Positions 3,098 through 55,752 of a stretch of 55,752 bases of DNA are shown here, in pieces (the first letter of the stretch is position 1; each line of letters opens with the position of its first letter). Location of the stretch: assembly GCF_000425865.1 (NCBI RefSeq), contig NZ_AUEG01000011.1:1-55752 (forward strand), written 5' to 3'. Below the pieces are notes generated by a model. The model had not been told where the DNA came from, ran no database searches, and saw only the letters and a program-made list of their open reading frames with translations. The position numbers were made by a program, and so were the translations under genes. This DNA is from Lacticigenium naphthae DSM 19658 (GTDB taxonomy: Bacteria > Bacillota > Bacilli > Lactobacillales > Carnobacteriaceae_A).

Positions 3098-3460
3098 ATG
3101 GCTTATGCAAAACCAGCATCTGTATACAAAGAAAATCAAGTAACGACGGCTTCCCCAAAACAATTAGTTATCTTATTGTATCAAGCTGCTGTTAAGAATA
3201 TGCGCTTAGCCGAACTGGCTATCGACAGCAAAGAAAATGACAAGGTGAATAAACACTTGATCAAAGCGCAAGACATCATTCAAGAACTTGCTTCCACTTT
3301 AAACTTTGAACAAGGCGGAGAAGTGGCCCAAAATTTAGCTGATCTGTATGCCTACCTGCTTCCGCAACTGATTCAAGCCAACATCAAAAAAGACAAAGAG
3401 AAAATCGAACAGTGTCGTAAAATCATGAACGAACTGCTCGAAGCCTGGAACGCTATCTAA
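3098..3460 (+). CDS. fliS: Flagellin export chaperone FliS
   Basis: A 120-residue four-helix protein that binds the C-terminal end of flagellin in the cytosol, prevents premature polymerisation and hands it to FlhA. The N-terminal motif YKENQVTTASPKQLVILLYQ is diagnostic of FliS (usually Y.....V.TASP..L..MLY). Length matches the family. AAGAAGGGAAA precedes the start. It is the last gene of this transcript, since a terminator stem begins inside its final codons. Confidence 0.96.
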   Translation: MAYAKPASVYKENQVTTASPKQLVILLYQAAVKNMRLAELAIDSKENDKVNKHLIKAQDIIQELASTLNFEQGGEVAQNLADLYAYLLPQLIQANIKKDKEKIEQCRKIMNELLEAWNAI

Positions 3461-3480
3461 TCGATAGTGTTCTTTTTTTT
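3448..3480 (+). terminator. Rho-independent terminator of the fliD-fliS unit
   Basis: The stem GAACGCTATC / GATAGTGTTC (3448-3457 and 3463-3472, one G-T pair) is followed by eight T residues. It overlaps the last codons and stop of fliS. Confidence 0.9.
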
Positions 3481-3993
3481 GCATCATTTGTCCCAGTGTT
3501 TTTTTGCGTATATATCAATTAGACCACTAAATAAATATTGAACTATTTGGAGGTGTACATTATTATGTGAAATTTTTTTGCATATTTACATAACAAACGT
3601 AATATATTTGTATAATTTTTCTTTACAGTTTAATGACGAAATGTCACAAAATTGTCATAATTGGATAAAGGGTCAATAATATGTGAACATTAGGACTATT
3701 TTAACATATGACTTTCATTACAAAATTAAAAAATAGTTGTTATGGAATGAACAAAATCAATTAATTTAGTACTAAACTAATCAAATTCCACAATTTCTTA
3801 GATTGTTCTTATAGTCCTAATTGTTTGATAATCGAAGTGACGCACCTTTTTCACCATAAATTTATGTGTTGTCTAGGCTTTTTAAAAACCTTATACTTAC
3901 TCTCGTGGTGTATTTTTATTAAGACAAGTTTAACCTGAATACATATTAACTATTTCCTCATATAGTAAACCAATTTAAAAAGGAGTGGGTCTG
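3481..3993. other. AT-rich gene-free gap separating late flagellar genes from the main operon
   Basis: About 510 bases without a credible gene on either strand. It is visibly more AT-rich than its surroundings. It holds a terminator at its left edge, scattered TATAAT-like stretches, a good Shine-Dalgarno followed by ATG-TGA near 3551-3570, and the candidate flgB promoter near the right edge. I see no match to a SigD-type (TAAA / GCCGATAT) promoter. Confidence 0.7.
3869..3897 (+). promoter_or_regulatory. Candidate SigA-type promoter for the flgB operon
   Basis: TTGTCT (3869-3874) and TATACT (3892-3897) are separated by exactly 17 bases, about 90 bases before the flgB start. This would fit vegetative-sigma control of the early/middle flagellar operon. 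Confidence 0.5.
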
Positions 3994-4368
3994 ATGGATC
4001 ATACCTACCAATTATTGCAAAAGGGATTACAGACGGCTTCGTTAAGACAAGAAGCGATCTCAAGCAATCTCTCCAATGTGAACACGGCAAATTATAAAGT
4101 GAATAAAGTGGAATTTGAGTCTCTGTTAACGAATGCACTAAATGGAGACGGAATGAGCGTTACCCATCAAGGTCATATCGGCTATAAAGATGCGCTCGGT
4201 ATTGAACCTGAAGTGAGTAAGCGAACAGGTACGACAGTGAAAGAGGACGGAAATAATGTCGATGTCGATTTAGAAATGACGGAGATGGCTGCCAACTCGA
4301 TTTACTACCAAGCATTGATCCAACAAGTCAATGCCAAGTATTCGATGATGCGCAGCGTGATGAAATAA
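3994..4368 (+). CDS. flgB: Flagellar basal-body rod protein FlgB
   Basis: A proximal rod subunit, exported and assembled onto the MS ring. The 124-residue product has the rod/hook signature SSNLSNVNTANYKVNKVEF near its N terminus and a C-terminal helix (EMTEMAANSIYYQALIQQVN) that packs in the rod. I chose the ATG at 3994 rather than the in-frame GTG at 3985, because AAGGAG ends only at 3984 and gives a normal spacing to the ATG. It is the first gene of the long basal-body/export operon and is followed by flgC after 17 bases. Confidence 0.95.
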   Translation: MDHTYQLLQKGLQTASLRQEAISSNLSNVNTANYKVNKVEFESLLTNALNGDGMSVTHQGHIGYKDALGIEPEVSKRTGTTVKEDGNNVDVDLEMTEMAANSIYYQALIQQVNAKYSMMRSVMK

Positions 4369-8548: not shown

Positions 8549-9876
8549 TGTTGAACTTACCCATCCAGGACTACCACCAACTCCTTGAAAAAAAACAATT
8601 TACCTTAAAAATGGGAAAAGTTTCCCAAGTGACCGGCTTGATCATTAAAGTAGAAGGCCTGGATGCGTTCATCGGAGAAGTCTGTGAAATCAACATCAAA
8701 TCCAACGGCAAAAGGGTCCTCTCCGAAGTGGTGGGCTTCGTGGAAAACACCGTCTTGTTGATGCCACTGGATGAGTTGGAAGGAATTGGACCTGGGTGTC
8801 TAGTGCGACCAACTGGGAAAGCTTTTCAAGTCGACGTGAGCGATGCGATGCTGGGCAAAACATTCGATGGACTGGGGCGACCGTTGAACGGTGAAGCAGC
8901 CGACAATGGAAATCCTGTCGCAGTGCATCGCGCTCCCCCAGATCCGTTTACACGGCGCAGGATCGCAGAGGTAATGGCCACCGGTATTCAGGCGATCGAC
9001 GGAGTGTTGACTGTCGGAGAAGGCCAGCGGATGGGGATCTTTGCCGGAAGTGGAGTCGGGAAAAGTACCTTGCTTGGAATGATTGCGCGCAACTGTCAGG
9101 CAGATGTCATTGTGATCGGCTTAGTCGGAGAGCGGGGACGCGAGGTCAATGAATTTATTGAAAACGACCTGGGGCCAGAAGGCTATAAAAAATCCGTCGT
9201 CGTCTGTGCTACATCCGATACACCGCCACTTGTCCGCTTGAAAGGTGCCTATGTCGCGACAGCGATCGCCGAATATTTCCGCGATCAAGGTAAAAAAGTC
9301 GTTTTGATGATGGACTCGGTGACCCGGGTGGCAATGGCGCAGCGAGAAATCGGCCTGGCAACTGGTGAACCGCCAACTACCAAAGGGTATACCCCTTCCG
9401 TTTTTACAACCTTGCCCAAACTGCTGGAAAGAAGCGGGATGGCGCAAACCGGTTCAATCACTGCTTTTTATACCGTATTAGTTGAAGGAGACGACATGAA
9501 CGAACCGATCGCGGATGCCGTTCGCGGGATCTTAGACGGGCACATCATCTTGTCACGGAAGATCGCTTCAGAAAATCAGTATCCGGCCATTGATATTCAA
9601 AACAGTTTGAGTCGGTTGATGAAAGAAATCGTTCCCGACCAGCATTACCAGTTGGCTGGAAAATTAAAAGAAAATATGGCCATTTATGCAGACTCGAAAG
9701 ACTTGATCGACGTGGGGGCCTACCGCAAAGGAAGCAATCCGATAGTGGATGAAGCGGTACTGAATCACAAGCCGATCCGAAACTTCTTGAAGCAAAGTGT
9801 GGACGAGAAAGTTTCTTATCCCCAAACGATTGAACAGTTACACGAACTTTTTGAACGGACGAGTCGAATAAGTTAG
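8548..9876 (+). CDS. fliI: Flagellum-specific ATPase FliI
   Basis: This is the ATPase of the flagellar type III export apparatus, related to the F1 beta subunit. The 442-residue protein has an N-terminal beta barrel, a Walker A motif GSGVGKST at about residues 167-174, Walker B (VVLMMDSVTRVA) and the family signature PPTTKGYTPSVFTTLPKLLE. The start ATG overlaps the fliH stop; an upstream in-frame start inside fliH would add 32 unrelated residues and is rejected. fliJ follows 10 bases on. Confidence 0.97.
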   Translation: MLNLPIQDYHQLLEKKQFTLKMGKVSQVTGLIIKVEGLDAFIGEVCEINIKSNGKRVLSEVVGFVENTVLLMPLDELEGIGPGCLVRPTGKAFQVDVSDAMLGKTFDGLGRPLNGEAADNGNPVAVHRAPPDPFTRRRIAEVMATGIQAIDGVLTVGEGQRMGIFAGSGVGKSTLLGMIARNCQADVIVIGLVGERGREVNEFIENDLGPEGYKKSVVVCATSDTPPLVRLKGAYVATAIAEYFRDQGKKVVLMMDSVTRVAMAQREIGLATGEPPTTKGYTPSVFTTLPKLLERSGMAQTGSITAFYTVLVEGDDMNEPIADAVRGILDGHIILSRKIASENQYPAIDIQNSLSRLMKEIVPDQHYQLAGKLKENMAIYADSKDLIDVGAYRKGSNPIVDEAVLNHKPIRNFLKQSVDEKVSYPQTIEQLHELFERTSRIS

Positions 9877-12668: not shown

Positions 12669-13535
12669 ATGTTAAAATCAATGTATTCTGGAGTTTCTGG
12701 AATGAAGAGTTTCCAAACAAAGATGGATGTCATTTCAAATAATATCGCAAACGTCAGTACAGTCGGATTTAAAACCGGGCGTGTCCGTTTTGAAGATATG
12801 ATCAGCCAAATCAATCAAACTGCTCAAGGCCCAAACAATAATGGTGGCGGTGGGGTCAATACTCAACAAGTCGGATTAGGTGTACAAGTAGGATCGACTG
12901 ATACGGTTATGAGTGGCGGTTCGCTTCAACCTACGGGACGTAATTTAGATTTTGCCATACAAAATGGAGATAGCTCATTTTTCGTTGTCAGTAAAACGGG
13001 TGATGGTGCAAATGTTCAATTTACTCGCGACGGTGGTTTTTATGCTGACCAAGATGGAAATTTAGTTACAGCTAGTGGAGCACGTTTAATGGGATACAAT
13101 ACTGATCCGATAACTGGAGAAAGTTTAGCTGTAGATGCTGGTGTCGTGACTTTGTCTATTCCTGAAGATGTAGATGGTGAGGATATTCAGAACTACACGA
13201 TTGATAATACCGGATTGATAACAGCTACATTAGCTGATGGAAATACGGCTACTTTAGGGCAGGTTGCTCTAGCTAGCTTTGCCAATCCGGATGGGTTAGA
13301 AAAAGCTGGAGGGAACTTATATAATAATACCGCAAACTCTGGAGAGGTTATCTATGGTCTTCCATCAGATGCAGGTTATGGTGTGATCCGTTCTGGATTC
13401 CTTGAAATGTCGAACGTCGATTTAGCGAATGAGTTTACAGAAATGATCACCACTAGCCGTGCATACCAAGCAAACTCACGAAGCATCACGACATCAGACG
13501 AGATGCTACAAGAATTGATCAACTTGAAACGTTAA
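12669..13535 (+). CDS. flgE: Flagellar hook protein FlgE
   Basis: The 288-residue subunit of the flexible hook. It begins MLKSMYSGVSGMKSFQTKMD and continues with SNNIANVSTVGFKTGRVRFED, the hook/rod N-terminal signature, and ends with the C-terminal FlgE motif (NVDLANEFTEMITTSRAYQANS). It is short, like the 264-residue FlgE of B. subtilis. GGAGG precedes the start. It is followed by an unusual 0.47-kb non-coding repeat region rather than directly by flbD/swrD. Confidence 0.93.
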   Translation: MLKSMYSGVSGMKSFQTKMDVISNNIANVSTVGFKTGRVRFEDMISQINQTAQGPNNNGGGGVNTQQVGLGVQVGSTDTVMSGGSLQPTGRNLDFAIQNGDSSFFVVSKTGDGANVQFTRDGGFYADQDGNLVTASGARLMGYNTDPITGESLAVDAGVVTLSIPEDVDGEDIQNYTIDNTGLITATLADGNTATLGQVALASFANPDGLEKAGGNLYNNTANSGEVIYGLPSDAGYGVIRSGFLEMSNVDLANEFTEMITTSRAYQANSRSITTSDEMLQELINLKR

Positions 13536-13554
13536 TAAAATTGTAAAAGGTTGA

Positions 13555-13949
13555 TCAGGTAACTTTCCGCTCTTTTCCGACTAGAAGTTGCCTGAATGGA
13601 AGTCTTGCAAGCAACTTCAATGGGTGAAGGCTAGTAAGGTTGACTGAATCGAACTGATTCAAGCAAGTTGAGGGCTGAGTAGTAGCTGAAGTTACCCGAA
13701 CGGAGCCCGTATTGGACACTTTCCGCACTATTCCGACTAGAAGTTGCCTGAATGGAAGTCTTGTAGGCAACTTCAATGGGTGAAGGCTAGTAAGGTTGAC
13801 TGATTCGGGCAAGTTGAGGGCTGAGTGGAAGCTGAAGTTACCTGAATGAAGCCCGTAGTGGACACTTTCCGCCCTTTTCCGACTGGAAGTTGCCTGAATG
13901 GAAGTCTTGCAGGCAACTTCAATGAAGAAAAGTGAATAAAGTTACCTGA
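13555..13949. repeat. Intergenic repeat array with terminal inverted repeats and 11-bp hairpins
   Basis: The array contains 2.4 direct copies of a ~150-bp unit, beginning at 13562, 13718 and 13864. The first unit is 156 bp; the second is 146 bp because a 10-bp segment is absent; the third is truncated after about 62 bp. Each copy holds an inverted repeat GAAGTTGCCTG / CAGGCAACTTC with a 13-base loop (13584-13618, 13740-13774, 13886-13920). The arms are perfect in copy 3, have a G-T pair in copy 2 and one mismatch in copy 1. The whole array is bounded by a 12-bp inverted repeat TCAGGTAACTTT (13555-13566) and AAAGTTACCTGA (13938-13949). It lies inside the flagellar operon between flgE and flbD and has no credible reading frame. 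Confidence 0.9.
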
Positions 13950-14003
13950 TTCAATTGAAAAAATTCAACACAACACAAACTGTTTGTGTAAGGAGATTAC
14001 CAC

Positions 14004-14207
14004 ATGATTGAATTGACCTCTATTGTAGGTGAATCGTTTTTATTAAATAGTGAATTGATCTACCGTATTGACTGGGCACACGATACTGTCATTACATTGA
14101 TCGATTTAAAAAAAATACGTGTCAAAGAAACACCAGATACTGTAGCTGAAAAAGTTTTAGACTATAAAAGAGAAATATATGCTTATCAAAGGGAGGCAGA
14201 AAATTGA
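14004..14207 (+). CDS. swrD: FlbD/SwrD family flagellar protein
   Basis: A 67-residue protein starting MIELTSIVGESFLLNSELIYRI, matching the FlbD family (Pfam FlbD), which includes SwrD of B. subtilis. SwrD there raises motor power needed for swarming by acting on stator function. It lies just before motA, which agrees with a stator-related role. GTAAGGAGATTACCAC precedes the ATG. Its stop overlaps the TTG start of motA by four bases. Confidence 0.88.
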   Translation: MIELTSIVGESFLLNSELIYRIDWAHDTVITLIDLKKIRVKETPDTVAEKVLDYKREIYAYQREAEN

Positions 14208-15007
14208 AAAGAAATATATTCCCTTTAATCGGGTTGGTAGTAGGAATTGGATTGATCCTTTGGTCCATGAGTTCGAGTGGACCGCTGATTGGATTTTTTG
14301 ACGGCCCCTCTTTAATTATTGTGGTTGCGGGCTCATTTAGTGCATTGTTGATCAGTTTTCCTTTTACCGTTTTAAAAAAAGTTCCTTCATTACTTAAAAA
14401 AATGTTTTTTGCTCCCAATGATGATCGCAGAGAATTGATCGATCTGATTACAGGGATCTCCAAAAAAATGCGTCGCGAAGGTGCGCTCGCAATTGAAGAT
14501 GACATTGCCAGTTTAACCAACCCATTGTTGATATACGGTTTACAAATGGTTGTAGATGGAGTCGACGGCGAAACCATTGAAGAATTGATGGAATTGGAAT
14601 ATGAACAGATAACGAGTCGGCATAGTGTCGGTCAAATGGTCTTCTTAAAATGGGGAGAATACGCTCCAGCTTTTGGGATGATCGGAACATTGATCGGATT
14701 GATTGCGATGTTGAGTGATTTGGCTGACCCGACAAAAATCGGTACCGGAATGGCGACAGCTTTGTTGACAACATTCTATGGTTCTTTCTTGGCGAACATG
14801 GTTTTCTTACCGATCGCCAAAAATTTGGAAGAACAGTCCCGTGAAGAGATGAAAACCTTCGATTTGATCATGGAAGGTGTTATGTCTCTACAAAAAGGAC
14901 AAAATCCACGTGTTATCGAACAAAAATTAGTGAGCTTCTTGTCAACTTCTGAAAAAGGGTTGGATGAAGAGGCTTCAGTAAGAAATCCAGCAGTAAATGA
15001 GGGATAA
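14204..15007 (+). CDS. motA: Flagellar motor stator protein MotA
   Basis: MotA and MotB form the proton-driven stator; MotA contacts FliG. The 267-residue product has four transmembrane segments (about residues 5-25, 33-55, 150-170, 180-205) and the MotA/TolQ signature region (GEYAPAFGMIGTLIGLIAML). It starts with TTG at 14204, preceded by GGGAGG, and overlaps the swrD stop. No closer ATG would retain the first membrane helix. Confidence 0.95.
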   Translation: MKRNIFPLIGLVVGIGLILWSMSSSGPLIGFFDGPSLIIVVAGSFSALLISFPFTVLKKVPSLLKKMFFAPNDDRRELIDLITGISKKMRREGALAIEDDIASLTNPLLIYGLQMVVDGVDGETIEELMELEYEQITSRHSVGQMVFLKWGEYAPAFGMIGTLIGLIAMLSDLADPTKIGTGMATALLTTFYGSFLANMVFLPIAKNLEEQSREEMKTFDLIMEGVMSLQKGQNPRVIEQKLVSFLSTSEKGLDEEASVRNPAVNEG

Positions 15008-55560: not shown

Positions 55561-55752
55561 TTTAACGAGAGTTTGATCCTGGCTCAGGACGAACGCTGGC
55601 GGCATGCCTAATACATGCAAGTCGAACGCTGAAGCTCTCTGCTTGCAGAGAGTGGAAGAGTGGCGAACGGGTGAGTAACACGTGGGGAACCTGCCCATGA
55701 GAGGGGGATAACATCCGGAAACGGATGCTAATACCGCATAACTAAAGAAACC
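55561..55752 (+). rRNA. 16S ribosomal RNA, 3'-truncated by window edge
   Basis: Universal 5' sequences are present: GAGTTTGATCCTGGCTCAG and the GACGAACGCTGGCGGCATGC and ACATGCAAGTCGAACG blocks, followed by the V1 loop and TGGCGAACGGGTGAGTAACA. The start is approximate to a few bases. The V1/V2 sequence resembles Carnobacteriaceae (GATAACATCCGGAAACGGAT, ATACCGCATAAC). The rest of the rrn operon lies beyond the window. Confidence 0.97.

Follow-up and report, generated by a model that had tools for sequence, protein, structure and literature searches.

Arrays of a 51–52-bp paired-site unit in the genome of Lacticigenium naphthae, one of them lying between flgE and swrD

Repeats lying between bacterial genes are usually attributed to a transposase or to RNA hairpins. 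The boxB modules of the BOX elements of Streptococcus pneumoniae measure about 45–50 bp, while eukaryotic satellite DNA is made of diverged monomers that stay in register, form higher-order repeats, share a short conserved box and differ in sequence between species. BOX elements are defined as boxA-(boxB)n-boxC, with distinct end modules (PMC3049150), and REP/BIME elements are characterized by a GT(A/G)G head at the foot of the palindrome (PMC2817692). The array considered here lies between a flgE-like hook gene and swrD/flbD, in a stretch of 55,752 nucleotides of Lacticigenium naphthae DSM 19658 (hereafter, the window). The host would belong to the Carnobacteriaceae, because the nearest relatives of its FlgE were those of Desemzia (66%), Alkalibacterium (62%) and Carnobacterium jeotgali (62%). 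It is close to certain that the array belongs, within this genome, to a set of some two dozen related arrays with a paired-site unit of about 51–52 bp.

The flgE–swrD array and its relatives in the same genome

The tandem repeat that the first-pass annotation had placed after the hook gene was real (copies 156 and 146 bp apart, TRF score 460), but the figure of about 150 bp given for its unit was not that of the basic repeat, which is a monomer of 52 bp. The array was parsed as a half-site followed by a 19-bp spacer, then seven dyads with 19-bp spacers between them, and a final 19-bp spacer and half-site; of the dyads, six measure 33 bp and one 23 bp (Table 1). Its 52-bp monomers (A, B and C) are arranged in a three-monomer higher-order repeat: the 156-bp unit corresponds to three monomers, and the 146-bp unit to the same three after the loss of 10 bp from one dyad. 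The clean 10-bp difference described between copies 1 and 2 was borne out, the deletion trimming dyad B2 by about one helical turn. The perfect 12-bp inverted bracket was likewise recovered, with ATCAGGTAACTT at 13554–13565 and AAGTTACCTGAT at 13939–13950, and it coincides with the two terminal half-sites. Concerning the 11-bp hairpin attributed to each copy, a perfect stem occurs in copy 3 (13886–13896 with 13910–13920, 13-base loop) and copy 2 closes with a G·T pair, as had been observed, but the stem of copy 1 contains an internal C·A mismatch.

Table 1. Coordinates of the array elements and flanking genes in the window
Feature	Positions	Strand	Remarks
flgE-like hook gene, upstream of array	12669–13535	+	
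Right half-site TCAGGTAACTT, terminal, left end of array	13555–13565	.	background fraction 0.0000
Dyad A1	13585–13617	.	33 bp, then 19-bp spacer
Dyad B1	13637–13669	.	33 bp
Dyad C1	13689–13721	.	33 bp
Dyad A2	13741–13773	.	33 bp
Dyad B2	13793–13815	.	23 bp (10 bp shorter), 19-bp spacer either side
Dyad C2	13835–13867	.	33 bp
Dyad A3	13887–13919	.	33 bp, perfect 11-bp stem including flanking bases
Left half-site AAGTTACCTGATTC, terminal, right end of array	13939–13952	.	
swrD/flbD, downstream of array	14004–14207	+	PF06289, E 3.3e-18

The distance from flgE to swrD is 468 nt in the window, versus 9–351 nt in 49 relatives. Promoter-like sites amounted to one match against 1.5 expected, and no Rfam family scored above its gathering threshold in the window besides a fragment of 16S rRNA. 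That fragment (55561–55752) is the beginning of a 16S rRNA gene truncated by the contig end. A scan of IMG/VR with SwrD returned no relative.

When the window array was compared by blastn with its own genome, the matches were weak, and several of them were other tandem arrays with periods of 51, 102, 103 or 204. When the unit was sought elsewhere in the genome, as the first-pass annotation had proposed, copies ending in the same way turned up at many scattered places, nine arrays being read and a tenth being probable. The monomer, of about 51–52 bp, consists of two inverted half-sites of about 14 bp (GAAGTTGMCYGAWT), with a fixed outer span of 33 bp, plus a spacer of 18 or 19 bp. A search for the dyad pattern with a free gap (4–16 or 4–24 bases permitted) gave 51 strand-matches at 36 places; every one of them measured exactly 33 bp, and the reversed control had no match. 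With up to three mismatches, there were at least 76 + 76 matches versus 5 + 3 in the control. A tally at a loose half-site threshold, of which only the peaks at 33, 18 and 19 were used, other values being noise, gave spans of 33 in 48 cases and 32 in one, and spacers of 18 in 42 cases and 19 in 17. Read unit by unit, the nine arrays, named AAGTTG arrays after their half-site, displayed spacings of 51 or 52, apart from one of 50, the 42 of the window, and one of 54 across masked bases. Across the arrays of both this family and others, there are higher-order repeats of 2, 3, 4 and 5 monomers, with local homogenisation. The strict half-site AAGTTGMCYGAWYS had 56 matches genome-wide and none in the control; 54 fell inside the nine arrays, and the remaining pair, at C19:8258 and C19:8362 with 104 bp between them, probably marks the tenth. 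Spacer-centred sites were in arrays in 37 of 47 cases, all with a gap of 18 or 19, and the 10 located outside arrays, compared with 13 in the reversed control, included none with such a gap. The AAGTTG dyad belongs to this genome alone: among 294 other genomes of the order, seven had a match to it, one each. At C14:27612–27643 there is an almost perfect palindrome, AAGTTACC...GGTAACTT, whose 32 bp are one fewer than in the dyads.

Further arrays were found in the flanks of the known ones. Those of 255 bp consist of five 51-bp monomers; their half-site, GAGTGTCCCGATTCG, is similar to AAGTTGMCCGATTCG on visual inspection. In the three arrays of this GAGTGTC family that were tested, the monomer types were 33–61% identical and the conserved columns were mainly the two half-site cores, with a few others; nevertheless, the register was exact in two of the arrays and had one +1 step in the third. 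Genome-wide, the GAGTGTC dyad gave 86 matches (3 and 4 in the controls), which formed 16 clusters of at least two, five of them read, plus 9 singles, including one in contig C1 and two in contig C2, with two mismatches. The spacings between neighbours, tallied on 74 of the 86 matches after grouping by hand, were exact multiples of 51 in 39 of 58 cases, with 16 deviating by +1, two by +2, and one by −11 across 24 units.

Altogether, 26 phased arrays or clusters were counted: the nine AAGTTG arrays read, the probable tenth and the 16 GAGTGTC clusters. None of the 26 is in contigs C1, C2 and C4, which make up 49% of the genome; this regional clustering is a lead and not a result, the contrast being inflated by assembly breakage at repeats. 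Forty further stretches of the genome (800,000 bases, twenty of the stretches being the first 400 kb of C1) contained no 51/52-bp array. Tandem repeats of 120/121/242 bp, which form a family of their own outside the 51-bp class, were located at C7:49.5k (L147:1520–2146), C7:58.2k (L147:10233–10978), C3:104.4k (L217:4377–4632) and C6:67.9k (L146:5849–6102). At C4:30.7k (L218:10736–11444) there are 2.9 copies of a 247-bp repeat; the copies are 98% alike, and several inverted repeats of the AAACTTCTTTCG type occur in every one. At the end of contig C11, a segment (L013:1640–1934) may stem from a group II intron, whose 5′ end it resembles.

Arrays with the same spacing in other genomes

Of 67 FlgE loci, only that of Pisciglobus halotolerans, a member of the Carnobacteriaceae by NCBI, displayed a 51/52-bp array (7.1 copies of 52 bp), located after an ORF that is fliJ-like by eye. 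A blastn search of the Pisciglobus genome returned 33 matches, spread over 13 contigs, and seventeen loci were read unit by unit, one of them (L141) yielding no unit and another (L126) a single unit. The units are 38-bp dyads with 14-bp spacers, and 86 of the 88 spacings below 130 bp were of 52, the two others being 91 and, across masked bases, 105. A contig sample of the same genome contained additional 52-bp arrays with a different half-site, ACTTGTTCA. The spacing recurs under two further genus labels of the family, g6 and g9, which may be kin of Pisciglobus: two species of g6 have 52-bp dyad arrays with different copy numbers at a common locus, which adjoins a 632-aa ORF, and one genome of g9 (G024) has both 52- and 51-bp dyad arrays. 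In a 51-bp array of genome G008 (L274) and in one known Pisciglobus array, the consensus inverted repeat was no better than in shuffles (p 0.21 and 0.23, respectively); for a 41-bp array of genome G014, p was 0.09.

A sample of the family (58 stretches, 1,044,916 bases) was searched for arrays of at least three copies with periods of 40–260. It yielded 13 arrays, of which 11 had periods of 51/52, one of 41 and one, without an inverted repeat, of 42; the sample was partly non-random, as it included a Pisciglobus contig known to bear arrays and contigs of G016 and G019 picked via chance pattern matches. No 51/52-bp array was present in 20 stretches (363,232 bases) from eight other families of Lactobacillales, where a 153-bp array fell inside a 766-codon open frame, and two 50-kb stretches of Escherichia coli K-12 had no array with a period of at least 20 at score 60. 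In blastn at E 0.01, nine query arrays gave no match outside themselves against ten other sequences. In another family of the order (G036), 20 kb of locus L239 contained two tandem arrays of 122/123 bp, one with 8.2 copies at 3160–4189 and one with 2.4 copies at 9119–9416. In a literature search of titles and abstracts, mostly without subscription papers, 51/52-bp dyad arrays in Carnobacteriaceae were not described.

The arrays could be neutral or selfish satellites that grow by slippage or unequal exchange, perhaps aided by a recombinase, with a step of 51–52 bp set by the mutational machinery and not by selection. The local homogenisation, the higher-order repeats, the locus common to the two g6 species with different copy numbers and the occurrence of arrays in every kind of intergenic location are consistent with this explanation. 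However, the register is kept, bar single-base steps, between monomers as diverged as those of the GAGTGTC family, the conserved columns are mainly those of the half-sites, and there are no solitary source modules above the control. We regard a neutral or selfish origin as doubtful.

The ends of the arrays bear on another possibility. With a half-site called at a background fraction ≤0.01, and the right end of the window array, which is misregistered, scored as a miss, an extra inward half-site was found beyond the outermost spacer at 18 of 24 left ends (7 of 9 in L. naphthae arrays, 11 of 15 in Pisciglobus) and 15 of 24 right ends (5 of 9 and 10 of 15, respectively). Its outer partner was present in L. 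naphthae at none of 9 left and 2 of 9 right ends, and in Pisciglobus at 1 of 15 left and 2 of 15 right ends. As the extra half-sites mostly have no partner, the arrays tend to end at dyad centres. Such unpaired inward half-sites, the bracketing of the array by inverted half-sites and the dispersion of the loci would suit a non-autonomous mobile element of the REP/BIME or MITE type moved by a transposase, and a MITE/REP-like insertion had been suggested on first reading. That suggestion held as far as the dispersed copies are concerned, but not in other respects: the Y1 (RAYT) transposase, PF01797, was found in neither of the two array-rich draft genomes (L. naphthae, G000, and Pisciglobus, G027), compared to 6 of 14 control genomes, which led us to reject a classical REP with RAYT; spacer-centred modules outside arrays were at control level; the strict half-site was not seen alone; and no target duplication was apparent by eye at 13554/13950. 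Also by eye, no GT(A/G)G head of the kind indicated in PMC2817692 was seen at the palindrome foot in the units of L. naphthae and Pisciglobus that were read. The mobile-element explanation, already weakened, is thus highly improbable.

Arm pairing, flgE–swrD hairpins and gene context

In L. naphthae, both arms of the dyad share one profile. The units submitted to pairing tests were chosen by their outer six bases, although for the C3, C6b and C7 arrays the pattern of first detection additionally involved positions 8, 10, 11 and 12. Since the arrays were partly found with half-site patterns, conservation of the outer six bases is by construction. The pairing of the inner arms was 0.463, versus 0.540 (sd 0.017) with the right arms shuffled (74 distinct units), and 0.472 versus 0.548 after removing the misregistered window units (68 units). 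At the level of the nine arrays, it was 0.486 versus 0.603, with a fraction of 0.015 of the shuffles being as low. Pairing in this genome is thus below the shuffled level, and the arms either shun compensatory pairing or simply do not have it. In three arrays, G·T was not favoured over A·C on the strand that is transcribed (17 versus 31). In Pisciglobus, array-level pairing was 0.687 versus 0.590 in shuffles (15 arrays; fraction of shuffles reaching that value, 0.013, or 0.006 with G·T), and G·T was favoured over A·C (111 versus 65, eight arrays). This modest covariation and the G·T preference fit selection on RNA or on a hairpin. The pairing evidence for DNA or RNA is mixed across genomes, and the spacing is the shared and stricter feature.

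Concerning the flgE–swrD gap in relatives, 42 of the 49 gaps available were of at least 20 nt and were scored with a hairpin score of our own. A strong hairpin was present in 26 of the 42, versus 8 of 123 other same-strand gaps of the same loci (Fisher p 8e-13), in a comparison without length matching and with related species that are not independent. In 25 of the 26 hairpins no T run was seen by eye in the next eight bases, and the hairpins were mostly of the non-terminator kind. Desemzia and C. jeotgali were among the 26, and examples from the Bacillota loci L018–L083 can be seen at L018:4862–4942, L020:4871–4959 and L039:4928–4980. No strong hairpin was found in this gap in Alkalibacterium, the scored Trichococcus loci or Pisciglobus (fold z −1.07). 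The literature search, by titles and abstracts and mostly without subscription papers, returned no description of a flgE–swrD hairpin. The hairpin that recurs behind flgE is a candidate determinant of the dosage of hook and stator, which can be tested.

According to a crude ORF caller, the arrays are flanked by long ORFs, whose ends overlap them by no more than about 75 bp. Those of L. naphthae also contain open frames encoding a repeated peptide. A 51-bp period leaves frames open (e.g., 291 aa at C7), but the 52-bp arrays of Pisciglobus cannot keep frame, and protein coding was therefore rejected as a general explanation. Terminators were also rejected, none being called in 13400–14300 and the array locations extending beyond convergent gaps: 21 Pisciglobus arrays were in 6 convergent, 5 divergent and 10 tandem gaps. 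One array of L. naphthae (C6:68.2k) follows fliM and fliY-like genes, with a repeat of the 121-bp type in between, and others adjoin MarR, LacI, aldehyde dehydrogenase and transporter genes; no common gene class was seen among the nine array neighbours tested.

These data bear on the second interpretation advanced in the first-pass annotation, that of an RNA structure. The arrays would be BOX-like elements whose transcribed hairpins process or stabilise mRNA, the one in the window setting the hook:stator ratio in place of the hairpin of the relatives. The window array folds well as RNA (z −4.45), which together with the hairpins of many relatives and the weak signals of Pisciglobus sustains part of that interpretation. 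Moreover, the window array may have replaced the flgE–swrD hairpin in its role, and for this reason the RNA explanation keeps some weight. On the other hand, the arms of L. naphthae pair below shuffled arms without covariation or avoidance of A·C, the arrays occupy gaps of all orientations, and the relatives named above, Pisciglobus among them, lack a strong hairpin in the gap. We consider an RNA element unlikely.

Putative phased sites and comparison with known systems

Our preferred reading, in which belief and doubt weigh about the same, is that the arrays are DNA-level, helically phased sites for a putative binding protein. A candidate sequence-specific dimeric protein would bind successive half-sites along one face of the helix. 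The half-site centres are about 21 and 30 bp apart, roughly two and three turns, which would amount to about five turns per monomer, and the array would thereby become a cooperative nucleoprotein patch. Recombination or slippage would make arrays grow or shrink, resulting in local homogenisation and higher-order repeats, while selection would hold the half-site and the spacing. The data demonstrate the family, its geometry and register, the conservation of the half-site and the return of the spacing in other genera; the protein, its cooperativity and its role in the cell are proposals. Helical phasing is suggested and not proven, because the 51-bp register has +1 steps. Against a DNA-level reading, the constant period could stem from the amplification mechanism, and some 51/52-bp arrays have no clear dyad (L274 of G008 and one of Pisciglobus). 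A broader and rather tentative extension, which seems somewhat improbable to us, is that the Carnobacteriaceae harbour a true satellite class of phased dyad arrays, with a fast-evolving, lineage-specific architectural protein and genus-specific half-sites, in which the five-turn spacing is kept.

If this broader extension is true, the confinement of arrays to about half of the assembly would be as expected of a system marking a chromosomal domain. Across several genera the spacing is kept while the sequence changes, and neither of the two genomes searched yielded a REP transposase. A role in DNA architecture is therefore directly testable; it would provide a bacterial counterpart to satellite evolution. 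In practical terms, short-read assemblies of Carnobacteriaceae may break or collapse at such arrays.

Compared to described systems, a CRISPR array was rejected, as the spacers repeat along with the monomers and are not unique. The terminal inverted repeats of MITEs have a parallel in the 12-bp bracket of the window, where no target-site duplication of the MITE type was evident by eye. The resemblance to BIME/REP elements lies in intergenic, palindromic, regularly spaced tandem arrays at many loci, with species-specific sequence. They differ in that neither RAYT, nor a GT(A/G)G head, nor solitary copies were found for the arrays described here, in the period of about 51–52 bp and in half-sites that, in L. 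naphthae, neither pair perfectly nor covary. With the BOX elements of S. pneumoniae the arrays have in common a low-GC Gram-positive host, tandem intergenic hairpin modules of similar size (about 45–50 bp in BOX) in variable copy number, and ends able to pair. However, their ends are half-sites of the same monomer and not separate modules like boxA and boxC, as these are presented in PMC3049150; besides, the arrays have higher-order repeats, and other genera share the spacing with dissimilar sequences. Finally, these bacterial arrays are short compared to eukaryotic satellites, with a few to about 17 monomers at many intergenic places, and their binding protein is only putative, but they share with satellites the diverged monomers that keep register, the higher-order repeats, the short conserved box and the sequences that differ between species.
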